The notes beneath the pieces are model-generated. The model made no database searches and had not been told where the DNA came from. It saw only the letters and a list, made by a program, of their open reading frames with translations. Of a stretch of DNA of 64,000 nucleotides, positions 8,508-14,329 are shown piece after piece. This DNA comes from Pseudomonadota bacterium (GTDB lineage: Bacteria > Pseudomonadota > Gammaproteobacteria > Steroidobacterales > Steroidobacteraceae). The stretch spans positions 1 to 64,000 of the forward strand of contig JAJZDW010000013.1 in NCBI GenBank assembly GCA_021851405.1, written 5' to 3'. Every line of letters starts with the position of its first letter. Positions within the stretch are counted from its first letter, which is position 1. Made by a program: the position numbers and the translations under genes.

Positions 8508-9263
8508 TCAGCTGCGCCGACCCAGGGCCGCGCGGCGGCGGCGCGAGGCGGCGAACCCGAGGCCCAGCAGACCGGCGGCCAGCAGCGCGAGCGAGCCGGG
8601 TTCCGGCATGCCGACGGTGGTGACGCCGTTCGTCTGGATGCTGAATGACAATCCGGCCTGCACCTGATTCATGTCATCGTAGAAGAGCAGGATGCGGTGC
8701 GATCCGGCACTGAGCGTCTGCGCGGTGCACGTCCCGAGGGTGTACGGGTGAACGCCGCCGAGATCGCAAACATTCATTCCGTCAAGGTACACGAACGCCG
8801 AGTCGTCCGCGCCGATGCCGAAGGTGACGTTCTCGGTGGTGGGGACATTGAGGTACCCGGAGAAGATCGCCGTGAGTCCGCCATTCGTATCGTTGGCGCC
8901 AGTCCCGTTCGGCGGGAAAAAATTGGAGCTCTGATCGAAGGGCAGGGTGATCGTCCCGGTGCCCGTCTGCGTGACGTAGGAATTCAGTCCCGGACTCCAC
9001 CAGGTCAGCTGGCCGTTGCTCAGGTCCAGACTGCTCGGCATCGTGCCGGAGTAGTTCGGGTTGAGCAGGGGTAATCCGTTCGGACCGAGGTTCGCCAGGA
9101 CCTCGTTGGAGTACGTCCCGCAACACAGGGTGTTGTAGCTCGGATCATGGCTGGAGACTTCGAAATAGGTGGCCGAAAGCGTGCTCGCGTGAGCCAGTGC
9201 GCTGGCGAGGAGCGTCAGTGCGCTGGCGGCCAGCCAGTAACGGGCGTGTTTCAGTACCGACAT
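8508..9263 (-). CDS. PEP-CTERM sorting-domain secreted protein
   Basis: A 251-residue exported protein. It has an N-terminal signal peptide (KHARYWLAASALTLLASALA then HAS), a central beta-rich region with a PA14-like flavour (FGIGADDSAFVYLDG, LSAGSHRILLFYDDM), and a C-terminal PEP-CTERM sorting tail: PEP, a hydrophobic helix ALLAAGLLGLGFAA and an Arg cluster. The exosortase (EpsH/XrtA) system cleaves such tails and attaches or exports the protein; no exosortase gene is in the window. The ATG at 9263 has a GGGAG ribosome site eight bases upstream; the longer open frame upstream lacks a signal. A role in extracellular matrix is the usual inference. Confidence 0.85.
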   Translation of the reverse strand: MSVLKHARYWLAASALTLLASALAHASTLSATYFEVSSHDPSYNTLCCGTYSNEVLANLGPNGLPLLNPNYSGTMPSSLDLSNGQLTWWSPGLNSYVTQTGTGTITLPFDQSSNFFPPNGTGANDTNGGLTAIFSGYLNVPTTENVTFGIGADDSAFVYLDGMNVCDLGGVHPYTLGTCTAQTLSAGSHRILLFYDDMNQVQAGLSFSIQTNGVTTVGMPEPGSLALLAAGLLGLGFAASRRRRAALGRRS

Positions 9264-9630
9264 GAGCGTGACTCCCAGGTCTGAATCATGGCGTCCTCGC
9301 AGGTTCTGGCGTTGCCGGCTTCGTGGCCGCAGCACCCGCTCCGTGTTCCGTTCACCCGCTTGCACGCGGCCGACGGCACGCGGTCGAAATGCAGCAAAAA
9401 TGATGCCAGGCGTGAATATTTATTTTGAAAACAAGGTGTTGTGAACTTTCAGATCTGAGGGATGCGGGTGATCTGTAAAAATTTCCGACGATTTCCATCC
9501 GCGCAACCCACCGGTGCTCCGAATTCGCTGCGCGCACCGGCGCTGCGACGGATCGATGCGCCGTGTCATATGGGTGTCAGGAAGGGCTGCGACACTGAGC
9601 GCCCCTGAGATCCCGACCCAGAGTTCTCCT
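9264..9630. other. divergent intergenic region with AT-rich promoter segment
   Basis: About 370 bases between the divergent PEP-CTERM and beta-propeller genes. A distinctly AT-rich stretch at about 9395-9440 is the likeliest place for a promoter facing the PEP-CTERM gene. Nothing else is recognised. Because the propeller start is uncertain, its true 5' end could lie as far left as 9514. Confidence 0.4.
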
Positions 9631-10749
9631 GTGACCGATACCGTTCCCTCACTCCCGGCGCCGCTGCGCGTTCGTGCTCTGTGGATGCTGACGGTGGCGA
9701 TCGCCGTTCTGGCCGGTGGCGCGGCGGCATCCGCGGCGCCGCTGCGGACGGCATTGCGGCGGGTGGGCGAGATTGCGGTGCCGGGACAGCCGCTGCGGAC
9801 ATTCGACATCGGCGATGTCAATGCGGCCGGGATCTATGCGTTCTCGGACCGTTCGAATCATGGTCTCGACCTGATTGATGCGTCGACCGGACGATTTCTG
9901 GGCCGTGCCGGCGGCTTCGGCCACGACGGTCCGAAGGGAGTGGTCGCGGTCGGAACGGGGACGTTCTGGGCCAGCGACGGCGACAGCGGAACGGTCAAAG
10001 TGGTGGACGTGCGAACCCGCAGGATCATCGCGAGCGTCCTGACCGAGCGCGGCAAGACCACCGATGAGCTCACCTATGATCCGCGCGATCATCTGCTCGC
10101 CGTGGTCGCCAAGCACGACGGCCCCCCCATTCTCAATCTGATCTCCACGCGCAGTCGCAAAGTGGTCGGACGCGTCACGCTCGCCGCCGCCACGGACGGG
10201 GCCGAGCAGCCGGCCTACGTGCCGGCGACCGGTCTGCTCTATCTGTCACTGCCGGTGCTCCATCACGTCAAGGCCGAAGGCGCCATCGCGGTCATCAACC
10301 CGCGGACGCGCCGGCTGGTGAGGCTGATTCACGTGCGCCAGTGCATGCCGGCAGGGCTGGCGCTCGGGCCGCACACCGATCTGCTCGTCGGTTGCAGTGA
10401 CGATGCCGTCACCGCCGGGTTCCCGGCGCATTCACTGATTCTCGATGCACGCTCGGGCAACATCGTCGCGCGCATCGTGCAGGTCGGCGGCTCGGACGAG
10501 GTGTATGCCGATCCGCGCGCGCACCGGTACTACCTGGCCGCGGTGAAAAATCCCGGCGGCCCGGTGCTCGGCATCGTCGATGCCCGTACGCGCCGCTGGA
10601 TCGCGAATCTGCCGAGCGGACCGGATGCACATTCCGTGGCGGCCGATCCGCGCAGCGGAAAAGTGTTCGTTCCGATTGCCGCGAGCCGCAACGGCGGCCC
10701 GTGCCGTGAGGGCTGCGTTGCGGTGTTCGCGCCGCGCGGAGTGAGCTGA
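9631..10749 (+). CDS. Secreted beta-propeller (YVTN/NHL-like) protein, copy 1
   Basis: An exported protein of about 372 residues built from repeated beta-propeller blades. Examples are DVRTRRIIASVLTERGKTTD, DPRDHLLAVVAKHDG and PRSGKVFVPIA. The signal peptide is RALWMLTVAIAVLAGGAAAS followed by AAP. A close paralogue starts at 62971; both contain SDRSNHGLD, DGAEQP, CMPAGLALGPH and GGSDEV in the same order. The start is uncertain: the GTG at 9631 gives a normal n-region, while the open frame extends to 9514. The role is unknown; such propellers usually bind ligands or proteins in the periplasm. It ends shortly before a strong terminator-like hairpin. Confidence 0.75.
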   Translation: MTDTVPSLPAPLRVRALWMLTVAIAVLAGGAAASAAPLRTALRRVGEIAVPGQPLRTFDIGDVNAAGIYAFSDRSNHGLDLIDASTGRFLGRAGGFGHDGPKGVVAVGTGTFWASDGDSGTVKVVDVRTRRIIASVLTERGKTTDELTYDPRDHLLAVVAKHDGPPILNLISTRSRKVVGRVTLAAATDGAEQPAYVPATGLLYLSLPVLHHVKAEGAIAVINPRTRRLVRLIHVRQCMPAGLALGPHTDLLVGCSDDAVTAGFPAHSLILDARSGNIVARIVQVGGSDEVYADPRAHRYYLAAVKNPGGPVLGIVDARTRRWIANLPSGPDAHSVAADPRSGKVFVPIAASRNGGPCREGCVAVFAPRGVS

Positions 10750-10768: not shown

Positions 10769-10832
10769 AGGTTGGGATGCGCGTTCCCGCAAAGGTTTCC
10801 GATGCGGGACGCGCACCCCAACCTGTCTTTTT
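10769..10832 (+). terminator. long-stem terminator after the beta-propeller gene
   Basis: An inverted repeat of about 21 bp with a few mismatches. The left arm starts AGGTTGGGATGCGCG at 10769 and the right arm ends GCGCACCCCAACCT at 10824, with a 13-base loop. It is followed by GTCTTTTT. It lies 20 bases after the propeller stop and also downstream of the convergent 48-residue peptide gene, so it may serve both. Confidence 0.75.
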
Positions 10833-10875
10833 GCCGGATGGCTCGGCGCGGATGCTCAGCCGACCGAGGGGCCGC

Positions 10876-11022
10876 TCAGAGCACGAGCACGATCACGACC
10901 TTCGTCTCGGGCGAGAGCGCCGTTTCATTGGCGCGCAGCAACCGGTGCGACGGGCCGTCGCGGTACAGGACGCGCCCGCTGCTGCCGATCTCGATGTCTG
11001 ACACCGGGGTTCTCATAGTCAT
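10876..11022 (-). CDS. Putative split-borosin precursor peptide (48 aa, core KVVIVLVL)
   Basis: A short gene with an excellent ribosome site (AGAGGAG seven bases before the ATG at 11022). The 48-residue product starts MTMRTPVSDIEIGSS, has a polar, charged middle and ends LSPETKVVIVLVL. The eight C-terminal residues are almost all branched aliphatic, like the N-methylated core of omphalotin (WVIVVGVIGVIG), which is the C-terminus of the borosin precursor OphMA. It is the next gene, about 100 bases downstream and on the same strand, after a borosin-type methyltransferase, so the two are probably co-transcribed. Unlike the SonA precursor of Shewanella, no LigA-like binding domain is recognised; residues 1-40 would be an unusually short leader. 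The gene call is good; the precursor role is an inference from the tail and neighbour. Confidence 0.7.
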   Translation of the reverse strand: MTMRTPVSDIEIGSSGRVLYRDGPSHRLLRANETALSPETKVVIVLVL

Positions 11023-11122
11023 CGCGAAACTCCTCTGACGGTGGGGATGTGGGCGTGCCTGCCCCGATCGTTCGTCCTGCAACTGGAACGTACAAGAGGT
11101 GCCGTGCGTTCGCGGCTGCGCT

Positions 11123-12037
11123 TCAGCCTGCGGCGTACTCACAGCTCGCCGCGGCGGCCGCAGGCACCGTGGTGACCCAGCCCGGCTTCTCCGGGTGGGT
11201 GATCCCGTAGGCCTGCCCCGGAACGCGGGCACCGCCCTTGCGATGCGTCAGCGACAGGTCGGTCAGACGCACCCCGAGCAACTCGGCGCGGCTCGGGTCC
11301 GGATCGGCCGGCAGCCCCGGCGGGACGTACAGGGTGCTCAGCGCATTGATGTCCTGGCGCGCCAGATCCCGCAGCGCGAAGACGTGCAGGACCGGCGCGA
11401 TGTTCTCGTACGCGGAGGCCTGGTAGAGCACCGCCTGGTGATCGCTCGGGTAGCTGCGCAGCAGGATGTCGGTGAGCGCACCGAGATTGCTGCGCGAGGG
11501 GTGCGCCTCGGGCGTGAGCAGACCGACCACCCCGATCTGCCACAACACGAGCGGGATGCGTGCATCGATCGCCGGTTTCAACAGTACGAAGCCGGTGGCC
11601 TCGTAGGTCTGCAAACCGGGCAGTGCCGGATCGATGCCCAGATCGGCCACCATCATGTCCTCGGCCGAAATCCCCGGCAGCATCTTGGCCTCGTGGCCTT
11701 CGCGGCGCGCCTGCACGATCGCCTCGTGCGAGGGGTACACGAACACGCCGGGATGGCCGTAGAACGCCGCGCACACCGACTGCCCCTGGCGAACCGGGGC
11801 GAGCAACGTCTCGACCATGTCCTGGTAGGCCCAGAGCCGCGGCTTGCCGGTGCCGTGCTCGTAGTGGCGTTTGAGACATTCAGCCGACGCATTGAGCTGT
11901 TTGACGTAGCCCTCGGTATGCGGGTCGGTGAGCAGATAGAACACCTTGTCGGCCGTGAACAGGCAGTGCTCCGCTTCGCGCGTGAGCTGACTGATTGCGG
12001 TCATTCCGGTGCCGACCACGGTCAATTTTCCATTCAT
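11123..12037 (-). CDS. Borosin-type peptide backbone N-methyltransferase (tetrapyrrole-methylase fold)
   Basis: A 304-residue SAM-dependent methyltransferase. Order of motifs: VVGTGMTAISQLT (9-11 GTG SAM loop), KVFYLLTDPHTEGYV, KPRLWAYQDM (R67, Y71), FYGHPGVFVYPSHEA (Y93), MLPGISAEDMMVADLGIDP and YEATGF. These follow the catalytic domain of OphMA step by step, including the Arg and Tyr residues known to matter there (OphMA R72, Y76, Y98; the OphMA Y66 equivalent is probably Y59). Fungal borosin enzymes carry their substrate as a C-terminal tail; this one ends soon after the domain, as in bacterial split borosins such as SonM, which methylate a separate peptide. The ATG at 12037 has GAGG five bases upstream. 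The expected reaction is alpha-N-methylation of backbone amides in the 48-residue peptide encoded just downstream. A siroheme or cobalamin role is unlikely given these motifs. Confidence 0.88.
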   Translation of the reverse strand: MNGKLTVVGTGMTAISQLTREAEHCLFTADKVFYLLTDPHTEGYVKQLNASAECLKRHYEHGTGKPRLWAYQDMVETLLAPVRQGQSVCAAFYGHPGVFVYPSHEAIVQARREGHEAKMLPGISAEDMMVADLGIDPALPGLQTYEATGFVLLKPAIDARIPLVLWQIGVVGLLTPEAHPSRSNLGALTDILLRSYPSDHQAVLYQASAYENIAPVLHVFALRDLARQDINALSTLYVPPGLPADPDPSRAELLGVRLTDLSLTHRKGGARVPGQAYGITHPEKPGWVTTVPAAAAASCEYAAG

Positions 12038-12384
12038 GGCAGCCTCTTCTGTCGTTGTGTGGGACAAAAAGCGGGCGGGCGTTCCAGGCCGGACGGCGCA
12101 GGCGTGCGCGGCGTGCGAGCGAAGCCGTTGTCGTGGCAGTGTTTCGCGAGCCGGTCCGGACCGCCGAGGCCGCCCGCGCGCCGGGCGCAGCGAGAGTCGC
12201 GGTCGCGTCCCGCGCGGGCGGTTCTGCTTTTTCCGGGGCCATAGAGATATGAGACACTTTGGCTCAGCCTTCGGGAATAGGCGCTACAACGAGTTCGTCC
12301 CTGCCATCGACGATTTCGTCCCAGCGCTCCCGAGGCGGTCTCGGTGACGGCGGAGCTCCGGACGCGCTGCGTGAGGGAGGGCCG
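12038..12384. other. divergent promoter region between borosin operon and lytS-type kinase
   Basis: About 350 bases between two divergent transcription units. Promoters for both must lie here. A strong ribosome site (GAGGGAGG) precedes the kinase ATG at 12385. LytTR regulators bind paired imperfect 9-bp direct repeats, but no clear pair was found by eye. Confidence 0.4.
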
Positions 12385-13533
12385 ATGCAAATCAGGGGCA
12401 AGTGCCGCGGGACGCGTGACGGGACGGGTCGCATCCGCGTGCCGCTGGTGTTCGTGAGCGTGTTCTGGGTGTACGTCACGGGCGTCGACCTCCTGCAGAC
12501 CACGAGCACTCAGGCCGCGCTCTCGGCGATGCGTGTCAAAACCGTATTCGCCCCCTGGGGCGCGCAGCTGATCGAGCATCTGGTGCTCTACCCGGTCCTG
12601 CTCGGCTGCCTGTGGGGCTCGCAGCGCCTCGGCTGGCGGCCGTCCGCACGGCGGGTGCCGGTGCAGTTCGCGCTCGGTCTGGGATTCTCGGCACTGGCCG
12701 CCCCGAGCCTGCTGCTCGGGGAGCTCTGTGCCGGTGATGTCGCCGCCGCTCCGCACGTGGCCGTCGCGTCGCTCTGGCGCGCTGCAGAACTGGAGGGGAG
12801 CCTGTGGCTCTCGAGCGTCACACGCTTCCTGCTCGCCTATGCGTTTGCGCTCGCACTCCTCTGGGCGTGCCGGATGGGCCGTGCGCTGCGCGAAGGCGAG
12901 ACCCAGGCCGCATCGCTGCGCCGGGCGCTCTCGGCGGCGCGCCTGGCGACGCTGCGCACGCAACTCTCCCCGCATTCGCTGTTGAATCTGCTGCACACCC
13001 TGCAGGGTCAGATCGGCTGGGATCCGCCGGCCGCCCGCGAACTGGTGGCGAAGTTGGGCGAGGTGCTGCGCGAGCTGCTCTGCGCGAGTGAACGGGAGTT
13101 CTGGCCGCTCGAGGCGGAGATTCGCTTCGCGCAGCAGTACCTGGCATTGCAGCAGCATCGCTTCGCCGAGCGGCTGCGCCTGAATGTGCCGGCTGCGGCC
13201 GGGCTGCCGGGCGTGTGGGTGCCGAGTCTGATTCTACAGCCGCTCGTCGAGAACGCGGTCGTGCACGGTCTGCGTGGTCACCACGGGGCAGTGTCGATCC
13301 GGGTCGAGGTCGCGGCGGCTGGGAATGAACTCACGTTGCGGGTGGTCAACACCGTCGCGCGGCGCGATGCCGACCGTGCCGAGGGGATCGGTCTGAGGAA
13401 TGTGCGTCATCGGCTCGCGCTGCATTTTGGGGAGCGGGCGACGCTGCGCGCAGCGGCGCAGCAGCAGGGCGAGTGGACGGTGGAGATTCATCTGCCGCTG
13501 CTCGGGGTCGATTGCGGCGCACCGAGCCTGTAG
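12385..13533 (+). CDS. LytS/YehU-type membrane sensor histidine kinase
   Basis: A 382-residue kinase with about four membrane helices in residues 18-165 and no recognisable extracytoplasmic sensor domain. The His_kinase domain begins at LRTQLSPHSLLNLLHTL (phosphoacceptor H197; family form LxxQINPHFLFNxLN). It is followed by the ATPase part with the N box LVENAVVHGL and the G box GIGLRNVRHRL. A LytTR response regulator follows 13 bases after the stop, forming a standard LytSR-like pair. The signal is unknown. It is divergent from the putative borosin operon, which makes that operon a candidate target. Confidence 0.85.
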   Translation: MQIRGKCRGTRDGTGRIRVPLVFVSVFWVYVTGVDLLQTTSTQAALSAMRVKTVFAPWGAQLIEHLVLYPVLLGCLWGSQRLGWRPSARRVPVQFALGLGFSALAAPSLLLGELCAGDVAAAPHVAVASLWRAAELEGSLWLSSVTRFLLAYAFALALLWACRMGRALREGETQAASLRRALSAARLATLRTQLSPHSLLNLLHTLQGQIGWDPPAARELVAKLGEVLRELLCASEREFWPLEAEIRFAQQYLALQQHRFAERLRLNVPAAAGLPGVWVPSLILQPLVENAVVHGLRGHHGAVSIRVEVAAAGNELTLRVVNTVARRDADRAEGIGLRNVRHRLALHFGERATLRAAAQQQGEWTVEIHLPLLGVDCGAPSL

Positions 13534-13546
13534 GGAGGGGAGATCG

Positions 13547-14329
13547 ATGCTGACGGCGATGATCGTGGATGACGAGGCCTCCGGCCGCCGGCTGCTGCGC
13601 GAGTACTGTGCGGCCGAGCCGGATCTAGAGATCCTCGGGGAGTACGCTGACGGGCACGCGGCGCTGCAGGCCGTGCAGATCACGCGTCCCGATGCGATCT
13701 TCCTCGACATCGAGATGGATGCGCTCGACGGCGTGACGCTGGCGCGTGCACTCGAGATGCCCCGAGCGCCGGTGGTGGTCTTCGTCACGGCGCATGTGCG
13801 CTACGCCGCGGAGGCGTTCGAACTCAGCGCGGCGGATTACCTGCTGAAGCCATTTGATGCGGCGCGCTTTCACGACACCGTCGAGCGGGTCCGGTGGCGC
13901 CTGAGGGCCGAGCGCAGTGCCGCACGTCAGGAGTCGCTGGAGGCGGCGCTCGAGCACCTGCAGCGGGCCCGCGCGGCACGCGTTGCCCGGCGGCCGCGCC
14001 TGGTCGTGGGGACGGGAAGTGACCGGCAAGTGCTCGACGCCGAAGAGATCGAGGCGGCCTGTGCCGAGCGCAACTACGTCAAACTGAACGTGGGGTCCGA
14101 GGCACATATTCTGCGCACGACACTGCGCGCGGCGCAGCAAGCACTGTGCAGCCAACCGTTGCTGCGGGTCAGCCGCTCCTGTCTGGTCAATTTCAACCAC
14201 GTGCGCCGGATCAGTCGCACGCGTCGCGGCGACTACATCCTGGTGCTCAGCGGCGGCGTGACGGTGACGAGCGCGGAAGGTTACCGGGAGACGGTGCGCC
14301 GGCATCTCGAGCGGTATACGCTCGGCTGA
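13547..14329 (+). CDS. LytTR-family response regulator
   Basis: A 260-residue two-component regulator. The receiver domain (1-120) has the acidic pair VDDE, the phosphoacceptor D54 in IFLDIEMDALDG, T80 in VFVTAH and K104 in LLKPF. The C-terminal LytTR DNA-binding domain (about 150-258) contains IEAACAERNYVKLNV, LLRVSRSCLVNFNHVRRI and VTVTSAEGYRETV. The ATG at 13547 follows GGGAGGGGAG; the longer frame upstream lies inside the kinase gene. Partner of the kinase encoded 13 bases upstream. Confidence 0.9.
   Translation: MLTAMIVDDEASGRRLLREYCAAEPDLEILGEYADGHAALQAVQITRPDAIFLDIEMDALDGVTLARALEMPRAPVVVFVTAHVRYAAEAFELSAADYLLKPFDAARFHDTVERVRWRLRAERSAARQESLEAALEHLQRARAARVARRPRLVVGTGSDRQVLDAEEIEAACAERNYVKLNVGSEAHILRTTLRAAQQALCSQPLLRVSRSCLVNFNHVRRISRTRRGDYILVLSGGVTVTSAEGYRETVRRHLERYTLG

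Follow-up and report, generated by a model that had tools for sequence, protein, structure and literature searches.

The 64,000-nt stretch analysed here (the window; positions 1 to 64,000 of the forward strand of contig JAJZDW010000013.1, assembly GCA_021851405.1, from a bacterium of the Steroidobacteraceae) carries two adjacent genes that we read as a split borosin pair: a methyltransferase and, downstream of it, a 48-residue peptide. The enzyme likely N-methylates peptide residues 42–48, and the adjacent LytS/LytTR two-component system is predicted to activate the pair; we put the probability of this reading as a whole at about 0.77. The elements of the pair are:

11123..12037, minus strand: enzyme, borosin-type alpha-N-methyltransferase, 304 aa; ATG at 12037, stop at 11123
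11030..11036, minus strand: ribosome-binding site AGAGGAG of the peptide gene, 7 nt before its ATG, read from the sequence
10876..11022, minus strand: gene of the 48-residue precursor peptide; ATG at 11022, stop ends at 10876
10900..11022, minus strand: predicted leader, residues 1–41, with R4, G13, G16, R17, R30, A31 and P38 invariant; no borosin binding domain (BBD) found
10879..10899, minus strand: predicted core, residues 42–48 (VVIVLVL), from column counts; presumed methylated stretch

By sequence, predicted fold and phylogeny the enzyme is a borosin-type alpha-N-methyltransferase. The earlier note on this DNA, made from the letters alone, had described both the enzyme and the short peptide gene; its coordinates, the near-ideal ribosome-binding site AGAGGAG and the enzyme motifs that it named (VVGTGM, GKPRLWAY, FYGHPGVFVYPSH, MLPGISAED, ADLGIDP and YEATGF) were borne out. 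The catalytic domain is 36–40% identical to OphMA/MroMA1 over ∼260–270 aligned residues, and no precursor is fused to the enzyme. The presumed catalytic and cofactor residues are R67, Y71, Y93 and Y59; across 98 alignment rows the first three are invariant and Y59 is conserved in at least 90%. All active-site residues of SonM (Y58, R67, Y71, Y93) have counterparts in the enzyme, and we infer that Y59 is the equivalent of SonM Y58, across a two-residue insertion. The AlphaFold2 model was built with 98 of 121 proteins in the alignment (longer fusions and a few others were left out); a model from a 14-row alignment reached a pLDDT (predicted local distance difference test) of 54 and was set aside. 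Compared with SonM (263 residues) the enzyme (304) has 41 residues more, and the extra length holds a conserved block around AYGITHPExPGWVT. This C-terminal extension is conserved over approximately residues 265–290; it was considered as a fused substrate core and rejected, ending as it does in a variable and not an aliphatic stretch. A 296-aa homologue (P0028, 55% identity) has the same extension and is without the two-residue insertion before GKPR. Another set of homologues (P0016–P0027 and P0029–P0031, ∼457–545 aa), some of them named Gemmatimonadota or Thermoanaerobaculia, carries two borosin methyltransferase domains in tandem, as read by eye, and looks like a covalently fused enzyme dimer.

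Conservation of the pair was assessed in 58 genomes of the genus, 13 of which matched the enzyme at E ≤ 1e-20. Three of these matches (38–42% identity) belong to another borosin group; the other ten form a close clade (72–100% identity), and in one of them the enzyme gene lies across two contigs. All ten close-clade genomes have a 48-residue open reading frame (ORF) whose ATG lies 100–145 nt downstream of the enzyme, the gap in the window being 100 nt. The split pair that the earlier note had proposed is thus conserved, and the contrary outcome that it had named, homologues consistently without an aliphatic-tailed peptide gene, was not seen in this clade. A profile of the peptide gave no convincing copy in the 48 other genomes of the genus (one match, at E 0.0075, has an internal stop); among 396 genomes of the order, with 17 candidates scored per genome, only three weak partial matches lay outside the genus. 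Profile searches of 5.8 billion proteins, with candidates restricted to about 26–84 aa, yielded 18 further peptide clusters, every one of 48 aa. Counting the loci there are 23 distinct peptide sequences, all exactly 48 aa long.

The window peptide (MTMRTPVSDIEIGSSGRVLYRDGPSHRLLRANETALSPETKVVIVLVL, 48 aa) gave dN/dS ratios (nonsynonymous over synonymous substitution rates) of 0.15–0.28 against its three nearest orthologues, and the DNA of the gene is 82–88% identical in these comparisons, versus 54–61% for the spacer before the peptide. The ratio is higher in some other orthologue pairs; the gene is mostly under purifying selection. A chance ORF was rejected on the conservation of the pair in 10/10 genomes, the dN/dS values and the fixed length in 23 sequences.

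The C-terminal end of the peptide varies within narrow limits. None of the 23 sequences has a charged residue at positions 42–48, and V, I or T accounts for 120 of the 138 residues at positions 42–47. In the 19 peptides examined by column, position 38 is always P, and the tail positions hold I/V (42), V/T/S/I (43), V/I (44), V/T (45), L/I/V (46), V/I (47) and L/A/I/F/V (48). Such narrow aliphatic, beta-branched variation at a fixed length is what the core of a backbone N-methyltransferase predicts, and the enzyme likely methylates the backbone amides of residues 42–48. Tested borosin enzymes act on mainly hydrophobic cores, as far as PMC11285071 reports.

A BBD was sought with a hidden Markov model (HMM) seeded with the BBD of SonA and iterated on the ORFs of 100 borosin loci, over ∼8 kb on each side of the enzyme where the contig allowed and over the whole window for the studied locus. 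Of 82 other borosin loci, 61 carry the domain (50 of them no further than 600 nt from the enzyme), among them a tandem-domain locus (L107) with two BBD ORFs just upstream. The same HMM found it in 0/18 loci of the enzyme's clade (nine genomes, each represented twice) and nowhere in the window (best match E 1.2). The peptide profile matched nothing in the PDB up to E 10; as a positive control, a 67-aa neighbour of another borosin enzyme matched SonA at 6e-4. A BBD hidden in the peptide was likewise not found at the sequence level, and the peptide, having no detectable BBD, would not qualify as a SonA-like precursor (type IV / class 3). The peptide might still adopt a BBD-like fold. That known bacterial split borosins have a recognisable binding domain was put too strongly in the earlier note: going by the Figure 1 legend of PMC11395268, a borosin class with separate methyltransferase and core and no identified BBD has already been described. 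The argument that the precursor type may be new is only partly right, BBD-less borosins being a described class in that legend. The literature matches listed gave no mention of the 48-residue precursor family, the precursor sets of the class-defining studies lying outside that search.

What the earlier note had overlooked is a conserved LytS/LytTR system with an associated operator, which changes the likely role of the pair. The elements are:

12385..13533, plus strand: LytS-type membrane histidine kinase (PF06580), divergent neighbour; scanned as ORF 12259–13530
13547..14329, plus strand: response regulator with receiver and LytTR DNA-binding domain; scanned as ORF 13400–14326
12289..12322, minus strand: predicted LytTR-type operator, GGGACGAAATCGT-N8-GGGACGAACTCGT, period 21 bp, reading toward the enzyme
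12246..12277, minus strand: promoter-like block TTCCCG, 20 nt, CATATC, downstream of the operator; putative promoter of the enzyme–peptide unit

The regulator start at 13547 we infer from the receiver domain. Kinase and regulator are divergent from the enzyme in 10/10 genomes (the regulator is cut by a contig end in one) and are, besides the peptide, the only neighbours found in all ten loci; the genes that follow the peptide differ from one subclade to another. A kinase match at E ≤ 1e-15 occurs in 58/58 genomes of the genus. In most of the genomes without the borosin genes the best match is a paralogue (46–53% identity near full length, fragments up to 59%), which is also present in at least 8/10 borosin genomes.

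Repeats of the type GGGACGA with a 21-bp period lie between kinase and enzyme in 10/10 loci, and in eight of them the match beats all but 0–2 of 200 shuffles. The operator was found 0 times in shuffles of the window; in its own 3.5-Mb genome there are two places at up to 3 mismatches, and the reversed control gave 0. As far as PMC4847170 describes them, LytTR sites are two 9–11 nt repeats separated by 11–13 nt; the 13-nt repeat at a 21-bp period is readable as 9–10 nt plus 11–12 nt, which would fit this form. Spacing to the promoter-like block is nearly fixed, with CATA at operator +72 in 9/10 loci (+71 in L065) and TTCCC at +45/46 in 9/10. An ATGG at operator +80/81 (window 12239–12242, minus strand) is invariant in all ten loci and may mark the transcript start. 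ORFs beginning at this ATGG overlap the enzyme start by 4 nt in four loci, three of which are close relatives; they vary in length and are unlike between subclades. A second peptide between operator and enzyme was rejected, a small ORF preceded by a ribosome-binding site being present in only 1/10 loci.

The second operator place in the same genome precedes a 30-residue ORF with its ATG at operator +150. Behind it lie a lasso B2 protein above the NCBIfam cut-off and an Asn_synthase protein above the Pfam cut-off, accompanied by a lasso isopeptidase-like gene and a TonB receptor. The lasso locus (L168, G000:C66:16000–35000) has a precursor (MQYLGNVSTETKGIVGQYPEGNLNFGAEQA), a B2 peptidase (lasso_biosyn_B2) and an Asn-synthase-like cyclase (Pfam Asn_synthase), the set by which a lasso locus is recognised, as well as the isopeptidase-like gene, the TonB receptor and FecR- and sigma-like genes (labelled by eye); the models for lasso cyclase, isopeptidase, benenodin and subterisin match only under cut-off. 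On its other side is a second, distant cyclase/B2 pair (about 27/33% identity).

The repeat occurs in 17 of the 58 genomes, namely all ten with the borosin genes and seven others, the latter all at 3 mismatches only and six of them upstream of the kinase paralogue. In five loci with a degenerate operator (L234, L235, L236, L237 and L240) a divergent, secreted-looking protein of 108–119 aa, which we take to be UrcA-like, replaces the borosin pair. Further operator sites exist in 6/10 borosin genomes: five lie within a lasso locus, and the sixth (G433) is at a contig edge with only the flanking genes of the lasso locus, so that it is probably a lasso site too. G374 has one additional site with no lasso gene near. 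In three genomes (G000, G391 and G388) the site points at the 30-residue lasso precursor at +149/150, and these three lasso promoters have TTGACA at operator +46 and GTAAT at +73. A lasso cyclase (E ≤ 1e-60) is present in 7/10 borosin genomes versus 5/48 others (Fisher p 2e-4), and the operator is at the lasso locus in 6/7 of these versus 0/5 (Fisher p 0.015); both tests ignore shared descent and are indicative only. The 6/7 includes G433, with its site on contig C52 and its cyclase on contig C107. In the five genomes with cyclase and no borosin genes the repeat lies on the same contig in 0/5, a count that for G378 and G444 rests on sites and cyclases lying on different contigs.

Two other identities for the gene products were weighed. 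The enzyme could be a tetrapyrrole (corrin/porphyrin) methylase, or another small-molecule methylase of the TP_methylase fold, as its Pfam TP_methylase match and weak NCBIfam matches to CobI/CobJ/CysG and YabN models might suggest; the latter are all far under cut-offs, and the curated cut-offs of the tetrapyrrole-methylase families are not reached. In sequence, fold and phylogeny the enzyme is nearer to borosin enzymes, and in a tree of 28 rows from an earlier 52-row set it did not group with SUMT/CobA-type enzymes (two such enzymes served as reference). Placement inside the tetrapyrrole-pathway methylases, the outcome that the earlier note had named as contrary to its proposal, was not obtained: sequence comparison and tree put the enzyme with the borosins. 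This identity was rejected and is barely credible. The peptide, in turn, could be no RiPP precursor and instead serve a structural or regulatory function, for instance by partnering the kinase or the enzyme; its hydrophobic end would then be buried in a protein or in the membrane, and the enzyme would methylate either this peptide or another target. No additional biosynthetic gene adjoining the pair is common to all loci, and the leader residues are conserved as strongly as the tail; both points would agree with such a protein. A bacterial borosin enzyme may reportedly act on a protein that is not a ribosomally synthesized and post-translationally modified peptide (RiPP), a proposal attributed to Lee et al. 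2024, and this weighs against the main reading. The exact 48-aa length, the end of always seven uncharged residues that are mostly V/I/T at positions 42–47, the borosin enzyme adjoining the peptide gene in 10/10 genomes and the preference of tested borosin enzymes for hydrophobic cores make a non-precursor protein improbable.

The regulatory part of the proposal has a rival as well. Pair and two-component system could be neighbours by descent only, the operator serving just the kinase and the borosin genes being expressed independently. The operator is nearer the kinase ORF start (55–121 bp) than the enzyme (about 256–529 nt), so that it may serve the kinase, and the enzyme would have a long leader in front of it. 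In six genomes without the borosin genes the kinase paralogue is preceded by a degenerate operator, and in five of these the divergent gene is another one; the next gene past the regulator is common to 6/10 loci, so that part of the synteny is plain neighbourhood. On the other hand, repeat and promoter-like block face the enzyme with an almost constant spacing in 9–10 of the ten loci, the same layout stands before lasso precursors in three genomes with no kinase match there, and kinase and regulator are the only neighbours besides the peptide in 10/10 loci. Independent expression is thus unlikely, if plausible enough to be kept in mind. Several further observations count against the proposal or leave the conservation of the peptide less clear. 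All ten genomes are of one genus, and shared descent inflates the co-occurrence counts; in one very close pair (L038–L040) dN is above dS (0.066 versus 0.040), and in the subclade L037/L038/L040 conservation of the DNA behind the peptide equals that of the peptide. The repeat is imperfect in L065 and L068, where 45–50 of 200 shuffles equal its match count, and a sigma-70 consensus scan found no promoter between kinase and enzyme. The kinase (at least 55% identity) is barely separable by identity alone from the genus-wide paralogue (46–53%, full-length), and in 3/6 genomes the second operator faces a 373-aa gene and not the lasso precursor.

Overall, the simplest account would be a BBD-less, short-precursor split borosin under a dedicated two-component system, which in many strains would also govern a lasso peptide. 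The 41-residue leader (R4, G13, G16, R17, R30-A31, P38) would take over the docking role of a BBD, perhaps helped by the clade-specific C-terminal extension of the enzyme, and the last seven or eight residues would pass through the active site in the N-to-C direction, as they do in SonA and OphMA. Upon binding the direct repeat upstream of the -35/-10-like block, the regulator would activate both genes of the pair. Through the same operator a lasso-peptide locus would come under this control in five of ten genomes, probably six, so that natural products of two kinds may be co-regulated. The maturation steps (removal of the leader, any cyclisation and export) would fall to enzymes encoded elsewhere. 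An unlikely extension is that the N-methylated aliphatic peptide acts as a membrane-permeable or membrane-seated pheromone sensed by the LytS kinase, upon which the LytTR regulator raises its own cassette and the lasso cluster. If true, this would be the first signalling role for a borosin, and a case of one RiPP controlling another in Proteobacteria, with a BBD-less precursor family. Little is known of what bacterial borosins mature into and what they do, and no type IV borosin pathway had been tied to a final product as far as PMC8429565 states. The conserved kinase, regulator and operator suggest a specific and testable purpose for a bacterial borosin and tie it to a lasso peptide of the same genome. 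N-methylating enzymes that need no bulky docking domain would be useful in the production of drug-like peptides, and a 48-residue precursor with its core at the very end is an easy test substrate.

Two other features of the window may be mentioned. An inverted repeat followed by TCTTTTT (10770–10838, plus strand), seen by eye between two converging genes and not flagged by the scan, is probably the terminator of the beta-propeller gene at 9514–10749. A PEP-CTERM-tagged protein with a PA14 domain (8508–9365, minus strand) had no match in the compared stretches of other loci.

Compared with known systems, the enzyme shares its catalytic domain with OphMA/MroMA1 of the omphalotin type, in which, in contrast to the separate genes here, the precursor is fused to the enzyme and a clasp domain is present. 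The omphalotin core is aliphatic, like the tail of the peptide. LytTR-type peptide-induced bacteriocin regulons likewise combine a membrane kinase, a LytTR regulator, a small peptide gene and an operator of two direct repeats; plantaricin, agr and sil are regulons of this type. The studied locus differs in being proteobacterial, in having an N-methylating enzyme and in that its peptide is only a putative signal of the kinase.

The 'Class 4' borosins have the same architecture as the legend in PMC11395268 words it, a likeness by description and not by precursor sequences. As far as PMC8429565 describes it, the type IV split system SonM/SonA of Shewanella oneidensis likewise has a separate methyltransferase and a short precursor encoded by neighbouring genes, and shares R67, Y71 and Y93, aliphatic sites and a core near the C-terminal end of the precursor (PMC8429565). 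SonA has a five-helix BBD leader (residues 1–53), whereas no BBD was found in the peptide, and its methylated residues L63 and I65 precede further residues, whereas the predicted core of the peptide is its extreme C terminus.
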